Assembly (NCBI GenBank): GCA_029263715.1 | Contig: JAJUFP010000002.1 | Coordinates: 62,001 to 126,000 of the forward strand | Source of the DNA: Nitrososphaera sp. | Lineage (GTDB): Archaea; Thermoproteota; Nitrososphaeria; Nitrososphaerales; Nitrososphaeraceae | Direction: 5' to 3' | DNA length: 64,000 bases | Shown: positions 10,641 to 48,494 of the stretch, one piece after another | How the letters are laid out: each line of letters begins with the position of its first letter | Position numbering within the stretch: position 1 is the stretch's first letter | Translations under genes and position numbers: made by a program | Notes under the pieces: generated by a model | Databases searched by the model: none | Seen by the model: only the letters and a program-made list of their open reading frames with translations | Told to the model about the DNA's origin: nothing

Positions 10641-10671
10641 TTTACAATTGTAAACTGCATTTCTTATCTAT
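10641..10671 (+). promoter_or_regulatory. Copper-island operator (copy 1) and TATA box
   Basis: TTTACAATTGTAAA at 10641-10654 is a perfect 14-bp palindrome. CTTATCTATC (10662-10671) is the TATA-like element, centred 26 bp before the ATG at 10693. The operator ends 38 bp before the ATG. Two further copies with the same geometry precede the genes at 16159 and 16584. Confidence 0.7.
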
Positions 10672-10692
10672 CGTTGCTTTGCAATACTGCGC

Positions 10693-10833
10693 ATGATCAG
10701 AGACCCTGTGTGCAATATGGCCGTTGACGAAAAGACCCAGTTCGTGTCGGAAGTGGGTGGCAGGAAAACCTACTTTTGTTCAGTGCACTGCAAGTCCTTT
10801 TTTGACAGGAATCGCGGCGTATTTGGGTACTGA
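10693..10833 (+). CDS. Stand-alone YHS-domain mini-protein
   Basis: 46 residues consisting only of a YHS/TRASH-like metal-binding domain: RDPVCNMAVDEKT at the start and YFCSVHCKSFFDRN near the end. The Cys pair in FCSVHC and the Cys of DPVCNM are the expected metal ligands. The same domain is fused to the N-terminus of both nearby Cu-ATPases, so it is probably a detached copper or heavy-metal chaperone or sensor. It is preceded by the copper-island operator. A paralogue lies at 16159. Confidence 0.8.
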   Translation: MIRDPVCNMAVDEKTQFVSEVGGRKTYFCSVHCKSFFDRNRGVFGY

Positions 10834-10882
10834 AGCGTATGCTTTCAAATGTTCTAGGTTTTTCCTGACCTTTTCGGTTGTT

Positions 10883-11473
10883 CTACTGCATTTCCATGCC
10901 AGAGCTCTGCCCCATCGCTTCTTGGAATTCGCGCATGAATTCCTCGTTTTCAAGCATGTGACCTATCATCTGCGTCCTTATGGCCGGGTCGTCCATCATG
11001 GACATGATCATGCTCTGAGCAAAGTCATGGTTTTCCCTCATGGTCTGTAGCATCTGCTCTCGGAGCTGTGGATCGTCCATCATGCTTTGCATGAACGCTT
11101 GATTCTGCATCATCATGGTCATCATTTGGCGGCTAACATCGGCGTCTTGCATCATCCCTGACATCATGCTCTGCGAAAACTGTTGATTGGTCCTCATGTT
11201 ATCGATCATCTGTGCGCGGAATGCCGGATCGTTCATCATTTCCTGCATAAACTCCTGGTTTTGCATCATCGACGTCATCATCTGCTGCCTTCCAGCCTGA
11301 CTGCTCATCATTTGCTGGTTTAACTGATTCATCATCTGCGGGTTCTGCATCATCTGCTGATTCATCATCGGCATTGTGGGCTGGTACGTTGCTGAAAAGA
11401 CTCCATAACCTATAGCTATGCCTGCGGCAAAAACTCCGACGGCTATTCCTACCCAGACGTACTGGCTTGTCAT
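10883..11473 (-). CDS. Membrane-anchored methionine-rich protein
   Basis: 196 residues from ATG 11473, supported by GATAAAATC (reverse-strand TATA) centred 27 bp upstream. Residues 5-27 form one membrane segment. The rest is a soluble, Met-rich chain (roughly a quarter Met) built from imperfect about 30-residue repeats with DPxxRxQM and NxxFMQxMM elements. Such Met-rich chains bind Cu(I) and Ag(I) in periplasmic copper proteins, so a pseudoperiplasmic copper buffer is likely. It is divergent from a Cu-ATPase gene and inside the copper island. Confidence 0.7.
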   Translation of the reverse strand: MTSQYVWVGIAVGVFAAGIAIGYGVFSATYQPTMPMMNQQMMQNPQMMNQLNQQMMSSQAGRQQMMTSMMQNQEFMQEMMNDPAFRAQMIDNMRTNQQFSQSMMSGMMQDADVSRQMMTMMMQNQAFMQSMMDDPQLREQMLQTMRENHDFAQSMIMSMMDDPAIRTQMIGHMLENEEFMREFQEAMGQSSGMEMQ

Positions 11474-11532
11474 ACACTTGAATAGCGATCCACCGATAAA
11501 ATCACTCCGGTACAATTCTCTAAAGGAGCAGC

Positions 11533-11570
11533 GCAGTGCATTGCATTGAATACTTCTGAAAGATATATCT
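11533..11570 (+). promoter_or_regulatory. copA1 promoter with GCAGTGCATTGCATTG element
   Basis: GCAGTGCATTGCATTG at 11533-11548 is followed by the TATA box AGATATATCT (11561-11570), giving a start about 6 bases before the ATG at 11598. Related elements containing ATGCAGT(G/A)C occur before the genes at 14913 (reverse), 21242 and 44674 (reverse). Confidence 0.45.
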
Positions 11571-11597
11571 GAAACGGAAGCAGTTATTGTATCAAGG

Positions 11598-13760
11598 ATG
11601 GCAAAAGACCCGGTATGCGGCATGGTGGTCAACGAAGAGACAGCCCTTTCAGCCGACATTGGGGGCAGAAAGTTCTACTTTTGCAGCACCAACTGCCTGA
11701 ATACTTTTGCCAATCCGGAAAAGGAATTATCAAAGCTCAAGAAGCGGATGTACGTTGCAGCATCCGGAGCCCTGATCCTTGCAATACTTCGTGCTGCAGT
11801 GTACCTTGGTCTAGCCTTTGGCGCCATCACCGTAACTTGGGCGCCTATTCCAGACATCCCTTATCTTACATGGGGTTTGCTTCTGTTCATCATCGTTACG
11901 CCCATCCAGTTCATAGGCGGATGGACCTTCTACGTGGGGGCATACGAGGCAGTCAAAAGAAGGACAGCCAACATGGACCTGCTCATCACCATAGGAACGC
12001 TTGCCGCCTACATATACAGCACTGTAGTGCTTTTCTTTCCCGGCGCGCTGCCAGTCAAAGAACGGGACGTCTACTTTGAGGTCTCTGCAGTAATCATCGC
12101 CTTTGTCCTGCTTGGAAAATACATGGAAGAGGCCATCAAGAAGCGGAGTTCTGCCTCCGTCAAAAAGCTGCTGGACCTTAGGCCTGCCATGGCCCGGGTC
12201 ATCAGGGACGGCGAGGAAAAGGAAATTCCTGCCAGCGAAGTGCTGGTCGACGACATCTTGGTTGTCCGGCCCGGCGAGAAGATACCCACCGACGGTGTTG
12301 TACTGGACGGCTCTTCAGCTGTGGATGAAAAGATGATCACCGGCGAAAGCATACCTGTAGACAAGAAGGCCGGCGACCAGGTGATAGGAGCCACGGTCAA
12401 CAAGCAAGGCATGCTCAAGATAAGAGCAACGAAGGTTGGAAAAGAGACAGCGCTGTCCCAAATCGTTCACATCGTAGAAGAAGCCCAGGCATCAACTGGC
12501 AAGATACAAAGGCTTGTAGATTCGGTCTCTGCAAAGTTTGTTCCTGCCGTCGTCTCTGTTGCCGTCGGGTCCTTCATAGTCTGGTACTTTGTGCTTGGAA
12601 ACTTTGTCACCGGCCTGTTGTCCTTCATAGCGGTGCTGATCATTGCATGCCCCTGTGCCCTTGGCATTGCCACTCCTGCCGCACTGATGGTGGGTGTGGG
12701 CAAGGGTGCTGAAGCAGGGATCCTGATCCGCGGCGCGGAATACCTGGAGCGCTCGCAAAAGATAACAACGGTGGTCTTTGACAAGACTGGCACCCTGACC
12801 CGGGGCGAGCCTTCTGTAACTGATGTGGTGGGTGAAAGCAAAGAAAGACTGCTAAGGGCCGCCGGCTCGGCAGAGATGGGCTCAGAGCATCCCCTTGCCC
12901 AGGCAATACTCAAGGAGATCAAGAAAACCGGTATTAGGCTTGAAAGCCCAAAGCAGTTTGAGGCCATATCCGGGATGGGCGTGCGCGCCGAAGTCGGGGG
13001 AAGGCGGATATTGTTTGGCAATAGAAAACTTGTGCAAAAGTTTGGCATCAGCACTTTGGATGTGGAGCAGCCCATGTCCGCACTTGAATCCGACGGCAAG
13101 ACAGTCATGATTGTAGCCGAGGACGAGACAGTGCTGGGCGTCATTGCCGTTGCCGACACCATCAAACCGTCATCGGCCCCTGCCGTGCAGGCTCTAAAGG
13201 AGCTTGGCGTCGAGACGGTGATGCTGACCGGCGACAACGAAAAGACCGCCCACGCCGTGGCCCGGCTTGTGGGAATAGACCGGGTGATTGCCAACGTCTT
13301 GCCAGGAGAAAAGGCAGCCGTGATAAAGCAGCTCCAGTCAGAAAAGAAGGTGGTTGCAATGGTCGGAGACGGAATCAATGACGCGCCGGCCCTCGCCCAG
13401 TCCGATATTGGGATTGCAATTGGAAGCGGCTCTGACATCGCAAAGGAGACCGGCGGGATCATACTGATAAAAGACGATGTGATGGACGTTGCACGATCAA
13501 TAAAACTGAGCCGGGCGACCATGAAAAAGATAAAGCAGAACCTGTTCTGGGCGCTAGTCTACAATGCTGCCGGCATCCCTATAGCAGCCATAGGCTTGCT
13601 GAGCCCCATAATAGCGGCAGCAGCAATGGCCCTAAGCTCCATATCCGTCATTGCAAACTCGTCCTTGCTCAAACGGTACAATGTGGACCATGAAAAGATG
13701 ATGCCAGGGCCGGAAGCCAAGACTGCTGTCACTGCCGCCAAAGTAGAGCAACTGCACTGA
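11598..13760 (+). CDS. copA: Copper-type P1B ATPase with N-terminal YHS domain
   Basis: 720 residues. The N-terminus ([21 protein letters not shown], residues 3-40) is a YHS metal-binding domain replacing the usual HMA domain. About eight membrane helices follow, with the CPC metal site ([13 protein letters not shown], about residue 350), TGES actuator motif, DKTGTLT phosphorylation site (about 394), SEHPLAQA nucleotide-binding HP motif, and GDGINDAPA (about 589). CPC plus the C-terminal motifs points to Cu(I) or Ag(I) export. It is divergent from the Met-rich protein. A second copy lies at 16584. Confidence 0.9.
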
Positions 13761-14189
13761 TTATCTTACCACCATCACGGTGCAGGGGGCGTACGTCACA
13801 ACACCTGAAGCCACGCTTCCAAGCAGCACCTTCTTCAGTTTGGTTCTACCTCTTGTCCCCATCACAATGAGGTCCACCTTTTCCTTTTCAGCGCGATCAA
13901 CTATGGCTGAGGCCGGCGTCCCAACGCTTTCGACCATCTGCGTCTTGACTTGCACGCCGTTGTTGCCTGCCTTGCTCTTGATCTTGCTAAACCACTTCTC
14001 GGCCTCTCTACCTCCGTTTTCTATGACATCGTTGAACAGGCTTGGAGTATAATGGCCTACAGTTGGAAGCTGAAGAACATGCAGCGCAATGATGTCTGCC
14101 TTGTCGCGCCTGGCAATCTGTATTGCTTTTTCAGCGGCAGCCATGCTCTGATCAGAACCATCCACGGCCACAAGTATCTTGGAAAACAT
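13761..14189 (-). CDS. Universal stress protein (UspA family)
   Basis: 142 residues from ATG 14189 (MFSKILVAVDGSDQSMAAAE). The family ATP-binding signature near the C-terminus is present as MGTRGRTKLKKVLLGSVASG. A TTG at 14204 in the same frame is an alternative start and fits the TATA box (about 14229-14240) as leaderless. It abuts the copA1 stop on the opposite strand, and lies downstream of another Usp gene on its own promoter. Confidence 0.85.
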   Translation of the reverse strand: MFSKILVAVDGSDQSMAAAEKAIQIARRDKADIIALHVLQLPTVGHYTPSLFNDVIENGGREAEKWFSKIKSKAGNNGVQVKTQMVESVGTPASAIVDRAEKEKVDLIVMGTRGRTKLKKVLLGSVASGVVTYAPCTVMVVR

Positions 14190-14278
14190 GCCTTCTTTTC
14201 CCAAAATACACTTGAGGGGAATGCGCTGATTATAAGCCTATTTAGGTTCTTTTATGAAAAACTGCATATATCATAAAT

Positions 14279-14731
14279 TTAGTGCACCAGCATCACAGGA
14301 CAGTTGGCCCGCTCAGAAACCTTCCTTGCGACACTGCCCAGGGCCACAACCACCTTTGATAGGCCTTGCAGCCTCCTGCTTCCCATTATTATCAGGTCCG
14401 CGTCTTTTGCGGACTTTATGATCTGCTCAGCCGGGTCGCCGGTCTTGACTTCAGAAGATACCTTCACTTTTTCATTGGATAGTAGCCTTATCTTGTCCTG
14501 GGCAAACCTGTTCCACTCCCGTTCGATATCACTGGCAATACTTCTTCTTGCCCTTGCTACCAACACTCTGTCGTTTCCAAGCACAAGGCTTGGTGGTATC
14601 GTTATTTCCTCTATAACATGCAACAGAATTATCTCGGCTTCAAGAGCCTTTGCAAACTCGGCCGCGTACATCAATGCCCTGTCGGACATCTGCTCTCCGT
14701 CGTGCGGCACCAGTATGGTCTTGATCTTCAA
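14279..14731 (-). CDS. Universal stress protein (UspA family)
   Basis: 150 residues starting MKIKTILVPHDGEQMSDRAL, with a C-terminal MGSRRLQGLSKVVVALGSVA nucleotide-binding loop. TTG 14731 overlaps the upstream gene's TGA as TTGA, so translation is coupled to the TRASH-like mini-protein. Its place in the copper island suggests a metal-stress response, which is inference. Confidence 0.85.
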   Translation of the reverse strand: MKIKTILVPHDGEQMSDRALMYAAEFAKALEAEIILLHVIEEITIPPSLVLGNDRVLVARARRSIASDIEREWNRFAQDKIRLLSNEKVKVSSEVKTGDPAEQIIKSAKDADLIIMGSRRLQGLSKVVVALGSVARKVSERANCPVMLVH

Positions 14732-14913
14732 ACTTTAGCAGCCACCAAACCTGAACCTTCTGTGCTGGCCAAGGCCCTCTGTTCCTGCCTTGCCCTGACG
14801 TATTGCTCCATGTGGTCCTTTGAGCAGAAGAGCTTGCCAAACCTTTTCAGCTCTGTATCGGGCTTGACATCTATTCCACATACCTCGCAATAGGTCGAAA
14901 CCTGCTCCGTCAT
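14728..14913 (-). CDS. TRASH/YHS-like mini-protein
   Basis: 61 residues. YCEVCGIDVKPDTELKRFGK followed by LFCSKDHMEQYVR gives the CxxC...FCSxxH pattern of TRASH/YHS metal-binding domains, used in heavy-metal sensing and trafficking. It is the first gene of an operon with a universal stress protein (TTGA overlap). Its TATA box (reverse of 14932-14942) lies about 25 bp upstream and the element GCAATGCAGTGCAT (14959-14972) just beyond. Confidence 0.65.
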   Translation of the reverse strand: MTEQVSTYCEVCGIDVKPDTELKRFGKLFCSKDHMEQYVRARQEQRALASTEGSGLVAAKV

Positions 14914-14958
14914 GCTACAAAAAAGACCTTTGTTTTATTTATCTGCCAAGAATGTTCT

Positions 14959-14972
14959 GCAATGCAGTGCAT
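14959..14972. promoter_or_regulatory. GCAATGCAGTGCAT element
   Basis: The element lies upstream of the TATA box of the TRASH-like/Usp operon (reverse strand) and also upstream of the wHTH regulator gene on the forward strand. It matches the elements at 11533, 21193 and 44728. Confidence 0.45.
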
Positions 14973-15092
14973 CTAAAAAAGTGCCCAAAGAAGCGCATAC
15001 CGAACGCCTCGCAAACAACTTTCTGCAAAAGTCAACAAGTTTTATCCCAATATGACAGTCTGGCACACCTTGATTGGTACAGATCACTAAAC

Positions 15093-15677
15093 ATGGCTAA
15101 CCAATATAACCATAGAACCGCAATATATTGGAGGGTCTTGTCCACGGCTTTCCCAGATGAGAACACAAAAGACCGAGTCTACGTATTCATTTCCAAGCAC
15201 CCTGGGTCGTATTTCCGGGAGATACTGCGTTCTCTGGCTGTAGGAACGGGAAACCTGCAGTACGTCATAGAGGCATTGGAGCGTGAGGGCAAAATAACTG
15301 CCATCCGCATAGGCTCGTGCAAGCATTTCTATGCGTCAGATGTGGACGAAGGAAAGAAAAAGATACTGAGCATGCTGTCACAGGAATCTCCAAGGGAGAT
15401 ACTTTTGTTCCTCTCAAGGAAGCCTGGTGCGTGTCAGACCGATGTTGCAAGGGAGATACACTGCTCTTCGCCAACGGCCAGGTGGTATCTGATTAGGCTA
15501 GAGTCCATGGGGCTGATCTGGAGCAAGCGGCACGGTGTTGAGGTAAAGTACTATGCCAACACATCCATGCCAGAACTGGCTAACCTTCTCAAGACTTACC
15601 GGCCAAGCATATGGAACAGGTATGCAGACAGGTTGGCCGACCTGCTGAGAACTTTTGAAGAGAAAGGTGTGGAATAA
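15093..15677 (+). CDS. Double winged-helix transcriptional regulator
   Basis: 194 residues from ATG 15093. Two consecutive winged-helix domains are visible: residues about 20-80 (VFISKHPGSYFREILRSLAV..LQYVIEALEREGKI) and about 95-155 (LFLSRKPGACQTDVAREIHC..ARWYLIRLESMGLI). This tandem design is common in archaeal regulators. Its stop codon overlaps the ATG of a small membrane protein (TAATG), so the pair is co-translated, as in archaeal membrane-linked regulatory pairs. The copper-island location suggests metal regulation, but no metal-binding motif is visible apart from scattered Cys. Confidence 0.75.
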   Translation: MANQYNHRTAIYWRVLSTAFPDENTKDRVYVFISKHPGSYFREILRSLAVGTGNLQYVIEALEREGKITAIRIGSCKHFYASDVDEGKKKILSMLSQESPREILLFLSRKPGACQTDVAREIHCSSPTARWYLIRLESMGLIWSKRHGVEVKYYANTSMPELANLLKTYRPSIWNRYADRLADLLRTFEEKGVE

Positions 15678-15982
15678 TGGCACTGTTTAGCATATTTGAC
15701 ATCTTTCAGCAAAGTCATCATGGCTTTTGGTGGGAGGTATTCAGCCTTGCAAGTGCTGGCCTTGCTCTGGCGCTGCTGGCGATAGCGTTGATAGCATACA
15801 AAAGACACCGGCTTAGGAGGCTGTTGCCACTCTCTGCTGCTTTTGGCCTCTTCATCACCAAAGTAGGGCTGCTTCATCTGGACAGCCTTTATCCCATGCT
15901 TGAATCGGAGCTGCAGCTGGCATCAGTTGCAGTAGAAGTCGGCATGCTTTCCATGATATTTTTGGCAGTGATAAGAAAATAA
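15677..15982 (+). CDS. Small three-helix membrane protein paired with regulator
   Basis: 101 residues with three hydrophobic segments (about residues 18-40, 50-66, 80-97). His residues sit near the N-terminus (QSHHGFW). The ATG overlaps the stop of the winged-helix regulator, so it may be its membrane partner. No family recognised. Confidence 0.55.
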   Translation: MALFSIFDIFQQSHHGFWWEVFSLASAGLALALLAIALIAYKRHRLRRLLPLSAAFGLFITKVGLLHLDSLYPMLESELQLASVAVEVGMLSMIFLAVIRK

Positions 15983-16107
15983 CCACAGACGAAGACTTTT
16001 TGTTTTTGTTCATATCTTGCGCAAGTTCTCAAACATCAGTCATTCTTAGGCGAACCAGATTTTCAAGAGGCAGGAATAAAACCAGGTTTTTTGGGTGTAG
16101 AGCATGG

Positions 16108-16138
16108 TTTACATTTGTAAAGTGTGTCTTTATCTATG
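16108..16138 (+). promoter_or_regulatory. Copper-island operator (copy 2) and TATA box
   Basis: TTTACATTTGTAAA at 16108-16121 differs from the other two copies at one central base. CTTTATCTATG (about 16128-16138) is the TATA element, 26 bp before the ATG at 16159. The operator ends 37 bp before the start. Confidence 0.65.
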
Positions 16139-16158
16139 AAAATTACGTTAAATGAAGC

Positions 16159-16302
16159 ATGTTTAAAGATCCTGTTTGTAACATGATGGTGGATGAGAAG
16201 AAGGCCCAGTTCGTATCAGAGGCGGGAGGCAAAAAGATCTACCTGTGTTCAGCAGACTGCAAGTCGCAGTTTGACAAGAACCCCAAGAAATACGGATACT
16301 GA
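16159..16302 (+). CDS. Stand-alone YHS-domain mini-protein (paralogue)
   Basis: 47 residues: FKDPVCNMMVDEKK then YLCSADCKSQFDKNPKKYGY. It is closely similar to the mini-protein at 10693 and to the N-termini of both Cu-ATPases, with the same Cys positions. Operator copy 2 precedes it at the same spacing, so the two mini-proteins and the second ATPase look co-regulated. Probable cytoplasmic copper carrier or sensor. Confidence 0.8.
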   Translation: MFKDPVCNMMVDEKKAQFVSEAGGKKIYLCSADCKSQFDKNPKKYGY

Positions 16303-16307
16303 AACAG

Positions 16308-16511
16308 TTACTTGAGCATAGCAAGGAACCTGTTCTGACTGTTCTTGCTTTTTGTCTGTTTCATTTGAATTCGGCCAACAGTTATGCCCGTATTAACAAT
16401 CGTTACACCGTTGATTCGCGCCTTTGAATTTGGGAGGCTGTGTTCAAGTAAAACGTATTGTTTGACCTTCTGCCGTCGTAGAATGTCTTGCATTAAAATG
16501 ACATACTTCAT
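16308..16511 (-). CDS. Small basic hypothetical protein
   Basis: 67 residues from ATG 16511 (MKYVILMQDILRRQKVKQYV...), or 61 from ATG 16493. It is basic and lacks membrane segments. The reverse frame fills the whole gap between a YHS mini-gene and operator copy 3. A possible TATA (GTAAAATCC, reverse strand, near 16535) overlaps that operator, so the palindrome could act on both strands. No family recognised; coding status rests on composition and on filling the gap. Confidence 0.4.
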   Translation of the reverse strand: MKYVILMQDILRRQKVKQYVLLEHSLPNSKARINGVTIVNTGITVGRIQMKQTKSKNSQNRFLAMLK

Positions 16512-16530
16512 GATTTCGAAATGCGTGGAT

Positions 16531-16563
16531 TTTACAATTGTAAACTTGTGTCGTAATATATCC
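16531..16563 (+). promoter_or_regulatory. Copper-island operator (copy 3) and TATA box
   Basis: TTTACAATTGTAAA at 16531-16544 is identical to copy 1. CGTAATATATCC (16552-16563) is the TATA box, centred about 26 bp before the ATG at 16584. The operator ends 39 bp before the ATG. Confidence 0.7.
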
Positions 16564-16583: not shown

Positions 16584-18722
16584 ATGGCAAAAGATCCTGT
16601 GTGTGGCATGTTTGTTGAAGAAAAGCCCGACGCCATTCGCCATGTGGCCGATGGCCGGGAATACTTCTTTTGCAGCAACCAGTGCCTCAACGAATTCACG
16701 CAGCCAGAAAAGGAACTTGCAAAACTAAAGCGGCACGTGATCATAAGCGCAGCCCTGACCGTACCGATAGCGCTGCTCACATACTTGACTATCCTTCCGA
16801 TGCAGACAGGCAACTATGTCATGCTTGCCCTGGCAACTCCAGTCCAGTTCTGGATAGGATGGCGGTTCTACCAGGGGTTGTGGGACGGCATCAAGGCAAA
16901 GGCGTCCAACATGGATACACTGATAGCAATCGGAACGACGGCGGCGTACCTGTTTAGCGCCACCGTAACGCTGCTGCCAGGATACTTTCCAATTGAATCA
17001 GTTTACTTTGAGACTGCTGCCATCATAATCACGCTTATCCTGGTCGGCAAGTTGCTTGAAGCCCGGACAAAGGAGAAGGCGTCCAGCGCGGTAAGAAAAT
17101 TGCTGGACCTCCAGCCACGGGTTGCCCACGTCATAAAGAATGGCAAAGAGGCAGAAATCCCTCTGGAGCAGGTTCAGGAAGGTGACCTCCTGGTGGTCAG
17201 GCCCGGCGAGAGGGTTCCCACCGATGGCGTGGTGGTCAAAGGATCGTCTACCATCGATGAGTCGGCCATCACAGGTGAAAGCGTGCCGGTGGACAAGTCT
17301 GCCGGAAGCGAGGTGATTGGAGCCACCATCAACAAGAGCGGGCTTTTGCAGATAAAAGCAACAAAAGTCGGCCAGGACACGGTGCTTGCACAGATAATCC
17401 GGCTGGTGGAGGATGCAAGAACCGGCAAGGCCCAGATGCAAAGGCTGGTAGACCAAGTGGCCAAGTACTTTGTTCCAGCCGTGCTCTTGACGGCAGTAGG
17501 CGTCGGGCTTGGATGGTACCTGGCCGGCATAGGCTTTACGTACTCGCTTCTTGCGTTTGTGTCGGTGATAATCATCGCATGCCCATGCGCCCTTGGCATT
17601 GCGACTCCTGCGGCCCTGATGATGGGCTCCGGCAAGGGCGCCGAAAACGGCATACTGTTCAAAGGCGGCGAGCATCTGGAGATGGCAAGGAAGGTCAGAA
17701 CCATAGTCTTTGACAAGACCGGAACCCTCACCCAGGGCAGGCCTGCCGTGACCGACGTCCTCGACCTTTCGGGGATTGGAGAAAAGGAGCTGCTCCGGCT
17801 GGCTGCAATAGCCGAGTCCGGATCGGAGCACCCCCTTGGGCAGGCAGTCGTGCGAAGGGCAAAAGAAGAAGGGATGGTGGTGACCACCCCCGCCTCTTTT
17901 GAGGCCGTCTCCGGCCACGGCCTTCGGGCTGTATACGCGGACCACACAATACTTGTCGGCAACAGGAAGCTGATGAAAGAAAACGGCATCGAGGTTTCAG
18001 AGGTCGACTCGACACTGACGCGCCTAGAAATGGAGGGCAAGACTGCAGTCATTATCTCAATAGATGGCCGGCTGTCCGGAGTCATTGCCATGGCAGACAC
18101 GGTAAAGGAGACGGCCAGGGGCGCCATCGATGCCCTGAAATCAAATGGCATCGAGGTGATAATGCTGACTGGAGACAACGAACGCACAGCCCGGACCATT
18201 GCCTCAAAGCTTGGCATTGAAAGGGTGATAGCCCAGGTCCTGCCGCACCAGAAGGAAGAGGTTATTGCAGGACTCCGAGCCGAGGGCAAGGTTGTGGCCA
18301 TGGTGGGCGACGGTATCAACGATGCTCCGGCCCTGGCAAGGGCAGACCTTGGCATAGCTATAGGCTCTGGCACCGATGTGGCCAAGGAGACCGGCGGGAT
18401 CATACTGATAAAGGAAGACCTCCGGGACGTGGTGACCGCGCTGGAACTGGGCAAGAAGACTGTGTCAAAGATAAAGCAGAACCTGTTCTGGGCTTTTGCG
18501 TACAACACCGGCCTCATCCCTGTTGCTGGGGGTGCGCTGGTACCGGTAATGGGCGTTGAAATATTCAGCTGGCTTCCGCTGCTGGCCGGCGCCGCCATGG
18601 CCCTGAGCTCTGTTACCGTGGTTGGAAACTCGGTGCTGCTTGGAAGGTACAGGCCTAGCTTTGCAAGGGGTCAATCTCTGAAGGGAGAAGAACTCTTGTA
18701 TCCAAAAGTGTCTCAAGCGTAA
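16584..18722 (+). CDS. copA: Copper-type P1B ATPase with N-terminal YHS domain (second copy)
   Basis: 712 residues, same architecture as the ATPase at 11598: YHS domain at residues 3-40 (KDPVCGMFV..FFCSNQCLNEF), TGES, CPC ([17 protein letters not shown], about residue 331), DKTGTLT (about 376), [17 protein letters not shown] (about 574). It is expected to export Cu(I) or Ag(I). It is preceded by operator copy 3, whereas the first ATPase has a different upstream element, so the two are probably induced under different conditions. Confidence 0.9.
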   Translation: MAKDPVCGMFVEEKPDAIRHVADGREYFFCSNQCLNEFTQPEKELAKLKRHVIISAALTVPIALLTYLTILPMQTGNYVMLALATPVQFWIGWRFYQGLWDGIKAKASNMDTLIAIGTTAAYLFSATVTLLPGYFPIESVYFETAAIIITLILVGKLLEARTKEKASSAVRKLLDLQPRVAHVIKNGKEAEIPLEQVQEGDLLVVRPGERVPTDGVVVKGSSTIDESAITGESVPVDKSAGSEVIGATINKSGLLQIKATKVGQDTVLAQIIRLVEDARTGKAQMQRLVDQVAKYFVPAVLLTAVGVGLGWYLAGIGFTYSLLAFVSVIIIACPCALGIATPAALMMGSGKGAENGILFKGGEHLEMARKVRTIVFDKTGTLTQGRPAVTDVLDLSGIGEKELLRLAAIAESGSEHPLGQAVVRRAKEEGMVVTTPASFEAVSGHGLRAVYADHTILVGNRKLMKENGIEVSEVDSTLTRLEMEGKTAVIISIDGRLSGVIAMADTVKETARGAIDALKSNGIEVIMLTGDNERTARTIASKLGIERVIAQVLPHQKEEVIAGLRAEGKVVAMVGDGINDAPALARADLGIAIGSGTDVAKETGGIILIKEDLRDVVTALELGKKTVSKIKQNLFWAFAYNTGLIPVAGGALVPVMGVEIFSWLPLLAGAAMALSSVTVVGNSVLLGRYRPSFARGQSLKGEELLYPKVSQA

Positions 18723-48380: not shown

Positions 48381-48494
48381 ATGAGCAGGCTCGTTTAGCC
48401 GATTTACAAATATAAAGTATTGCTTTGAAAAGGCTATCAGATATTAACAGTATTGAAAGAAGACAATATATCCAACAAGTGTGTATTGTATGAC

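Follow-up and report, generated by a model that had tools for sequence, protein, structure and literature searches.

A 14-bp palindrome that recurs in front of copper genes in a 64,000-nucleotide stretch of Nitrososphaera sp. (contig JAJUFP010000002.1, positions 62,001 to 126,000; this whole stretch is called the window) probably serves as operator for CopT, which belongs to the archaeal one-component copper sensors of the CopR/CopT type. We found that all four matches to the palindrome pattern in the genome lie at copper genes and at nearly the same distance from the start codon, that this spacing is conserved in related archaea, where copT is linked to many of the sites, and that the TATA box follows the palindrome at one offset in target promoters and often at a shorter one in copT promoters. 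From this arrangement we infer that CopT binds the palindrome, in which direction it regulates, and that copper is the signal it senses. CopT, encoded in trans on contig C7, would act on at least four promoters: one in front of each of two YHS mini-genes, one at the second YHS-copA, and one, on contig C3, at a copA of the HMA type. Copper enzymes are essential to ammonia-oxidizing archaea, among which the nearest named relatives are placed. What is offered here is a specific proposed operator with a candidate sensor, together with a proposed spacing rule and a predicted regulon in which stand-alone YHS mini-proteins take part.

Palindromes at Copper Genes

An earlier note on this DNA had reported three copies of the palindrome at a fixed distance from the start codon. 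Its coordinates, sequences, and spacings of 38, 37, and 39 bp agree exactly with the window sequence, and the TATA box that it placed after each copy was seen at all three.

10641..10654, no strand assigned: palindrome TTTACAATTGTAAA, proposed CopT operator; ends 38 bp before the ATG (10693) of YHS mini-gene 1
10664..10670, plus strand: TATA-like TTATCTA, starting 9 nt past the palindrome of YHS mini-gene 1
16108..16121, no strand assigned: palindrome TTTACATTTGTAAA, proposed CopT operator; ends 37 bp before the ATG (16159) of YHS mini-gene 2
16130..16136, plus strand: TATA-like TTATCTA, starting 8 nt past the palindrome of YHS mini-gene 2
16531..16544, no strand assigned: palindrome TTTACAATTGTAAA, proposed CopT operator; ends 39 bp before the ATG (16584) of the second YHS-copA
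16554..16560, plus strand: TATA-like TAATATA, starting 9 nt past the palindrome of the second YHS-copA

The centre of the TATA-like heptamer lies about 26 bp upstream of the ATG at the three sites. Leaderless transcripts are a common archaeal pattern, and this distance fits them. The targets had also been named correctly: both mini-genes carry Pfam YHS domains, and 16584-18722 encodes a heavy-metal P1B ATPase.

10693..10833, plus strand: YHS mini-gene 1, 46 amino acids (aa), Pfam YHS 36.2 bits (cut-off 30.3); predicted target
16159..16302, plus strand: YHS mini-gene 2, 47 aa, Pfam YHS 40.1 bits (cut-off 30.3); predicted target
16584..18722, plus strand: second YHS-copA, 712 aa, P1B-type heavy-metal ATPase; predicted target
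11598..13760, plus strand: first YHS-copA, 720 aa; palindrome absent upstream, not a predicted target in this genome

The nearest named relatives of the copA genes of this organism belong to Nitrososphaera metagenome-assembled genomes (MAGs), at 76-77% identity.

With up to two mismatches allowed, the palindrome was observed 4 times in the window, against 0.23 expected, and 4 matches were reached in none of 100 shuffles. The genome assembly of which the window is part comprises 1.92 Mb in 14 contigs, and in it TTTACANNTGTAAA was found 4 times against 0.09 expected from the window dinucleotides. The pattern TTACANNTGTAA also occurred 4 times, compared with 0 for its reversed control, and all 4 occurrences match TTTACANNTGTAAA as well. 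Each of these sites is followed, 37-39 bp downstream, by the start codon of a gene for copper handling. The window contains three of them, and the fourth, TTTACAGATGTAAA, lies outside it on contig C3, 39 bp before the TTG start of a third, HMA-type copA and with a TATA offset of 9. When the TATA box was included in the pattern (TTTACANNTGTAAA-N8-10-YWAWMYA), exactly the same 4 genome sites were recovered, and the control gave 0. The earlier note had proposed such a genome scan with fixed spacing and would have given up the motif had it been as frequent in random DNA; the count proved far above expectation, and 4 of 4 sites stand at copper genes.

The fourth of the looser window matches (48403-48416, two mismatches) lies 22 bp upstream of the ATG of a minus-strand gene of the Lrp family, which is not a recognised cop gene. 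It is possibly a self-regulatory site of this Lrp-family paralogue, or a chance match.

Distribution among Related Archaea

In seven genomes of the same genus, the present one included, the TTACANNTGTAA 12-mer occurred 33 times, against 9 for the reversed control. Fifteen of these sites lie 37-46 bp before YHS-copA, HMA-copA, YHS mini-genes, or copZ. Another 4 lie 39 bp before other candidates, namely two DUF4396-like proteins (one tested with Pfam, the second likened to it by eye), a cysteine-containing protein of 63 aa, and a protein whose weak YtkA match falls below the cut-off. No cop-type gene lies downstream of the other 14, a number somewhat above the 9 of the reversed control. In relatives, the palindrome is found upstream of the same four kinds of gene and also in copT promoters, where it is often common to divergent copT and copA.

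The related genomes, whose scanning the earlier note had recommended, bear out its fixed geometry, since spacing and TATA phasing alike are kept across members of the family. A sample of 61 genomes from the family yielded at least 126 oriented sites, which among the matches listed led to 150 ATGs at 20-50 bp. Of these ATGs, 63 fall at positions 36-41, a span of six, and 87 are spread over the remaining 25 positions of that range; for 120 of these listed oriented sites alone, the numbers were 62 and 82. The palindrome-plus-TATA pattern gave 49 matches in 27 of the 61 genomes and 1 control match. In a sample of the phylum, it was matched in 25 of 398 genomes (22 of 74 within the order and 3 of 324 outside it), while controls matched in 5 genomes. 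Moreover, the site precedes YHS-copA in 12 of 35 archaeal copA loci examined (80 were fetched by the copA query). The named loci with this arrangement include ones from Nitrososphaera, Nitrosopolaris, and Nitrosocosmicus and, with one mismatch, from a Euryarchaeota MAG and a Thermoplasmata MAG. Tandem palindromes 35-36 bp apart were seen in the genus g2, at L043 (G036:C1:282395 and 282431), where they face a YHS mini-gene, and at L239 (G085:C40:5071 and 5106).

Two TATA Geometries

We collected 85 distinct cop-linked sites, in front of YHS-copA (30), YHS mini-genes (19), HMA-copA (7), copZ (4), and copT (25). Each had to show a palindrome with no more than one mismatch and an unbroken core, with a recognised gene at a distance of 25-60 bp; the sites are related by descent and not independent. 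The best TTAWATA match begins at offset 9 in 52.5 of the 60 target sites (ties split) and at offset 2-3 in 12.7, about half, of the 25 copT promoters. Three alternative TATA strings gave the same contrast between targets and copT, with a one-base shift.

In archaeal promoters, the B recognition element (BRE) lies just upstream of the TATA box. Occupation of a target site would therefore not obstruct the BRE, whereas at a copT site of the close type the BRE would be covered; with the BRE position inferred from the TATA box, the palindrome stands directly upstream of it at the targets. This geometry suggests that the targets are activated and that copT is self-repressed. With its edge 8-9 nt ahead of the target TATA box, the operator would leave room for transcription factor B (TFB) and the TATA-binding protein (TBP) to bind alongside CopT, which would most likely aid their recruitment. 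Where relatives have the operator at copT, it is often 6-7 nt nearer to the TATA box, and CopT bound there would lie over the BRE and repress copT.

CopT, the Candidate Regulator

CopT joins an N-terminal AsnC/Lrp-type helix-turn-helix (HTH) to a C-terminal TRASH domain, which binds metal. Many relatives have the palindrome between copA and a divergent gene for an AsnC-type HTH protein ending in TRASH. A copT gene accompanies copA on 12 of the 35 archaeal copA loci examined, and in these the site stands before copA or copT in 8 (at most one mismatch) or 10 (at most two). In the present genome, CopT has 155 aa and is encoded on C7, not adjoining copA. A CopT profile matched several Lrp-type proteins in this genome, and HTH and TRASH occurred together only on C7 among the matches listed; in a PF08394 search, the same protein was the single one above the cut-off. 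Its domain scores are 51.1 bits for PF13404 and 36.5 bits for PF08394, each with a cut-off of 27.

The CopT proteins measured in the family are 143-183 aa long. PF01037, the Lrp ligand-binding domain, gave no match at an expectation value (E) of 0.01 in the CopT of this genome or in those of L160 and L131; it was above cut-off in L132, L135, and L138, and below it in L137 (20.3 of 25 bits). The predicted fold of the L160 protein has confident HTH and TRASH ends and a low-confidence middle (mean predicted local distance difference test score 68, predicted template modelling score 0.33). In G008, a genome of the same genus that is 99% complete, the best CopT-profile match is only a generic one at the Lrp level (E 3.6e-13, in the HTH part), and its YHS-copA has no palindrome but does have the TATA-like TTAATATATAG. 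This would be a natural loss of CopT and site together.

The First copA and Neighbouring Genes

The first copA (11598) lacks the palindrome, as the earlier note had stated: the best 14-mer in the 160 bp upstream has 4 mismatches. The site is also absent from its closest relative, in G013 (86% identical). The copA of L312, from the second family of the order (f9), is 69.6% identical to the first copA and 48.1% to the second, and it has the site at 36 bp together with a divergent copT at 36 bp. The proposal that the two ATPases respond to two different signals is thus weakly favoured by the first copA and its G013 relative, but the L312 gene, closer to the first copA, argues against it. Since the L312 gene has the site, a fixed division of labour is no more likely than loss in the own lineage of the first copA, a gene that may once have been part of the regulon and dropped out of it.

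The sequence GCASTGCATTGCA has only two exact copies in the window, at 11533-11545 (plus strand) and 14958-14970 (minus strand). They lie 52 bp before the start of the first copA and 44 bp before a 61-aa cysteine-containing gene (14728-14913, minus strand), and the stretch from GCASTGCATTGCA to the TATA box is alike at both. With at most one mismatch, TGCASTGCATTGCA is dispersed and clustered elsewhere in the genus, and for this reason the element was dropped as a shared operator before the first copA; it may be a second operator or a repeat. The 61-aa gene resembles by eye the 63-aa gene of G015 (L044:6197-6385), which has a palindrome 39 bp upstream, and the two may have different promoters. 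Divergent from the first copA is the gene of a methionine- and glutamine-rich protein, probably membrane-anchored as judged by eye (10883-11473, minus strand), and a similar gene is divergent from the orthologous copA in G013 (L240:6222-6845). An additional YHS mini-gene of the present genome, without palindrome, lies at about 74254-74355 of contig C8 (G000:C8, L269).

Weighing the Explanations

Several observations weigh against the palindrome being a CopT operator with the outputs proposed above. CopT was counted as present at a best profile E below 1e-15, a threshold set by us, in 37 genomes of the family; the architecture was matched in 21 of 27 genomes with CopT and in 5 of 10 without it (Fisher p 0.12), which is not significant. 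The same holds for genomes at least 90% complete (12/16 versus 1/4, p 0.10) and at least 95% complete (9/13 versus 0/2, p 0.14). Fragmentary assemblies may have blurred this association. Among the 21 f9 loci examined, just 3 have a recognised cop gene directly behind the site (one each of YHS-copA, YHS mini-gene, and HMA-copA), and one further locus has copT on the opposite side. The TATA offsets of copT promoters outside 2-3 are scattered, with weaker matches (mean 5.48 of 7 versus 6.30 at targets). In the own genus, the palindrome is absent from all 8 copT genes checked, so self-repression through it does not apply there and was rejected for this genus. Compared with the motif of Pyrococcus furiosus CopR, the palindrome is stricter and has a centre of 2 bp instead of 3. 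Finally, only copC/D and copA2 rose among the cop genes of Nitrososphaera viennensis under copper limitation (PMC7785015).

This last observation bears on the possibility that CopT does bind the palindrome, as a repressor or as a copper-limitation activator of the targets, not as a copper-induced activator; we regard this as rather unlikely. In G014, which we take to be N. viennensis partly from its gene order, the site is found upstream of both YHS-copA and HMA-copA and again in the interval that separates copZ from a YHS mini-gene. The rise of copA2 is not expected of a simple copper-on activator. On the other hand, with only copC/D and copA2 raised among the cop genes named in that report (PMC7785015), the predicted regulon did not move as one, and the target geometry, with the expected BRE and TATA box free, is that of activated Pyrococcus promoters. 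Of the earlier proposal that an activator bound directly upstream of BRE and TATA turns on copper handling, the operator-like character, the linkage to copper genes, and the edge just upstream of the expected BRE have held; copper-on activation sits poorly with copA2.

Other proteins might read the site. A winged-helix repressor of the BlaI/MecI/CopY family (PF03965), acting as in Gram-positive bacteria until copper arrives, is an improbable reader, even though the bacterial cop box TACANNTGTA lies within the palindrome and, in the published table, the Lactococcus lactis CopR operators before copB and yahC contain TTTACAATTGTAAA exactly (PMC7253601). PF03965 was above cut-off in 8 of 37 genomes, with not all site loci scanned for it; in the present genome no protein reached it (best 18 bits, cut-off 22.6), and a CopY/BlaI regulator was rejected there. 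G019, which has no CopT-level match, has a weak PF03965 match (19.1 bits) beside one palindrome; this link failed on inspection: the palindrome runs up to an ATG, a TATA box is missing downstream, and the gene beside it is no cop gene. Many sites, moreover, have a link to copT. Slightly less probable still is the winged-helix protein whose gene (15093-15677) lies among the YHS genes of the window. Its gene is near two of the three window sites, and it matches Pfam HTH_HVO_0163_N and ArsR/MarR-like HTH families and, below cut-off, an NCBIfam ArsR/SmtB metalloregulator (27.1 bits, cut-off 55). However, beyond this weak ArsR/SmtB match no metal-binding family was matched, many cop loci carry sites without this gene, and its only matches among the fetched loci outside the own genome are two frames of L263 (E 4e-14 and 2e-11), where no cop gene lies behind the palindrome-like site; the candidate was rejected as not conserved at the fetched cop loci. 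By eye only, the gene order at 15093-15982, a winged-helix gene before a small predicted membrane-protein gene, resembles that of G019 (L328:1241-1822), where a two-part winged-helix gene lies behind one. That the palindromes are chance matches or a dispersed repeat without regulatory role is hardly credible. The 14 of 33 same-genus sites without a cop-type gene, a number near the 9 of the reversed pattern, would suit it, but the counts in the own genome, all at cop genes with the same spacing, and the spacing and TATA phasing conserved across the family led us to reject it. CopT thus remains our preferred reader of the palindrome.

Comparison with Known Systems

A regulator of the same kind, CopT/CopR of the copTMA cluster of Sulfolobus solfataricus, reportedly controls a copper P1B ATPase. 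In P. furiosus, CopR (PF0739) acts through the semi-palindrome TTNNCAWWWTGNNAA, which adjoins the BRE on its upstream side; copA is activated and copR repressed (PMC7830388). CopR resembles the system proposed here in being a regulator with an Lrp/AsnC-kind HTH and TRASH, in its half-sites TTNNCA/TGNNAA, in the position of its site directly upstream of the BRE, and in the divergence of copR from copA, as of copT from copA in many relatives; the activation of copA and repression of copR are in line with the two TATA offsets (PMC7830388). The half-sites of TTNNCAWWWTGNNAA match, but its exact 15-bp consensus does not, with 2-4 mismatches in the 15-mers over the palindromes at copT promoters of the named loci. 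In the published domain description, CopR has HTH and TRASH only (PMC7830388). It is an Lrp-type octamer, whereas the scanned short CopT proteins have no match to the AsnC ligand-binding domain, which we do not treat as defining. In P. furiosus, copR lies beside copA; in the present genome copT is encoded in trans, and the copT promoter of this genus has no site.

In N. viennensis, the regulation of the cop genes "remains an open question" in the words of its transcriptome study (PMC7785015). The copper-limitation motif TTCSGSMTTTGWACYANT described there is likewise a promoter motif proposed for a copper response in a related archaeon, but it differs in sequence and in gene set (the copC/D region and multicopper oxidases; PMC7785015). 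In G014, a 47-aa YHS mini-gene adjoins copZ (L233, about 12175-12640), and an HTH-TRASH CopT lies elsewhere in the genome. The name CopT given to NVIE_012920, beside copZ in that publication (PMC7785015), may therefore refer to the YHS mini-gene and not to the DNA-binding regulator.

With the CopR/CopY cop box of L. lactis, the palindrome shares the core TACANNTGTA in all four sites of the own genome, and copper export genes are concerned in both (PMC7253601). The Lactococcus regulator, however, is a BlaI/CopY-family repressor in a bacterium, a protein type with no representative above cut-off in the own genome, and its refined 16-mer RNYKACANNTGTMRNY is missed at one or both ends by each of the four sites. 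If CopT binds, the identity of TTTACAATTGTAAA with the Lactococcus operators is most simply a convergence of winged-helix recognition, and convergence across the two domains is likely. A search of open-access papers, with most subscription papers lying outside it, gave no archaeal report of this operator and no description for this group of a regulon under CopT; the literal strings turned up in one paper, the Lactococcus study (PMC7253601). Relative to the known archaeal CopR/CopT regulon, we propose as new the shortened regulator, the strict 14-bp operator, and the spacing code. A fuller hypothesis, which we advance tentatively and with more doubt than confidence, is that one 14-bp operator, letter for letter, came to be used in two domains by convergence, by CopY/BlaI-type CopR in Lactococcus and by Lrp/TRASH-type CopT; that in archaea spacing alone would give both outputs, with the TATA box at 9 nt for activation and at 2-3 nt for copT self-repression; and that the reader would be a shortened CopT without the Lrp effector domain. 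If this is true, the identity with the bacterial copper operator is a clean case of convergent operator evolution.

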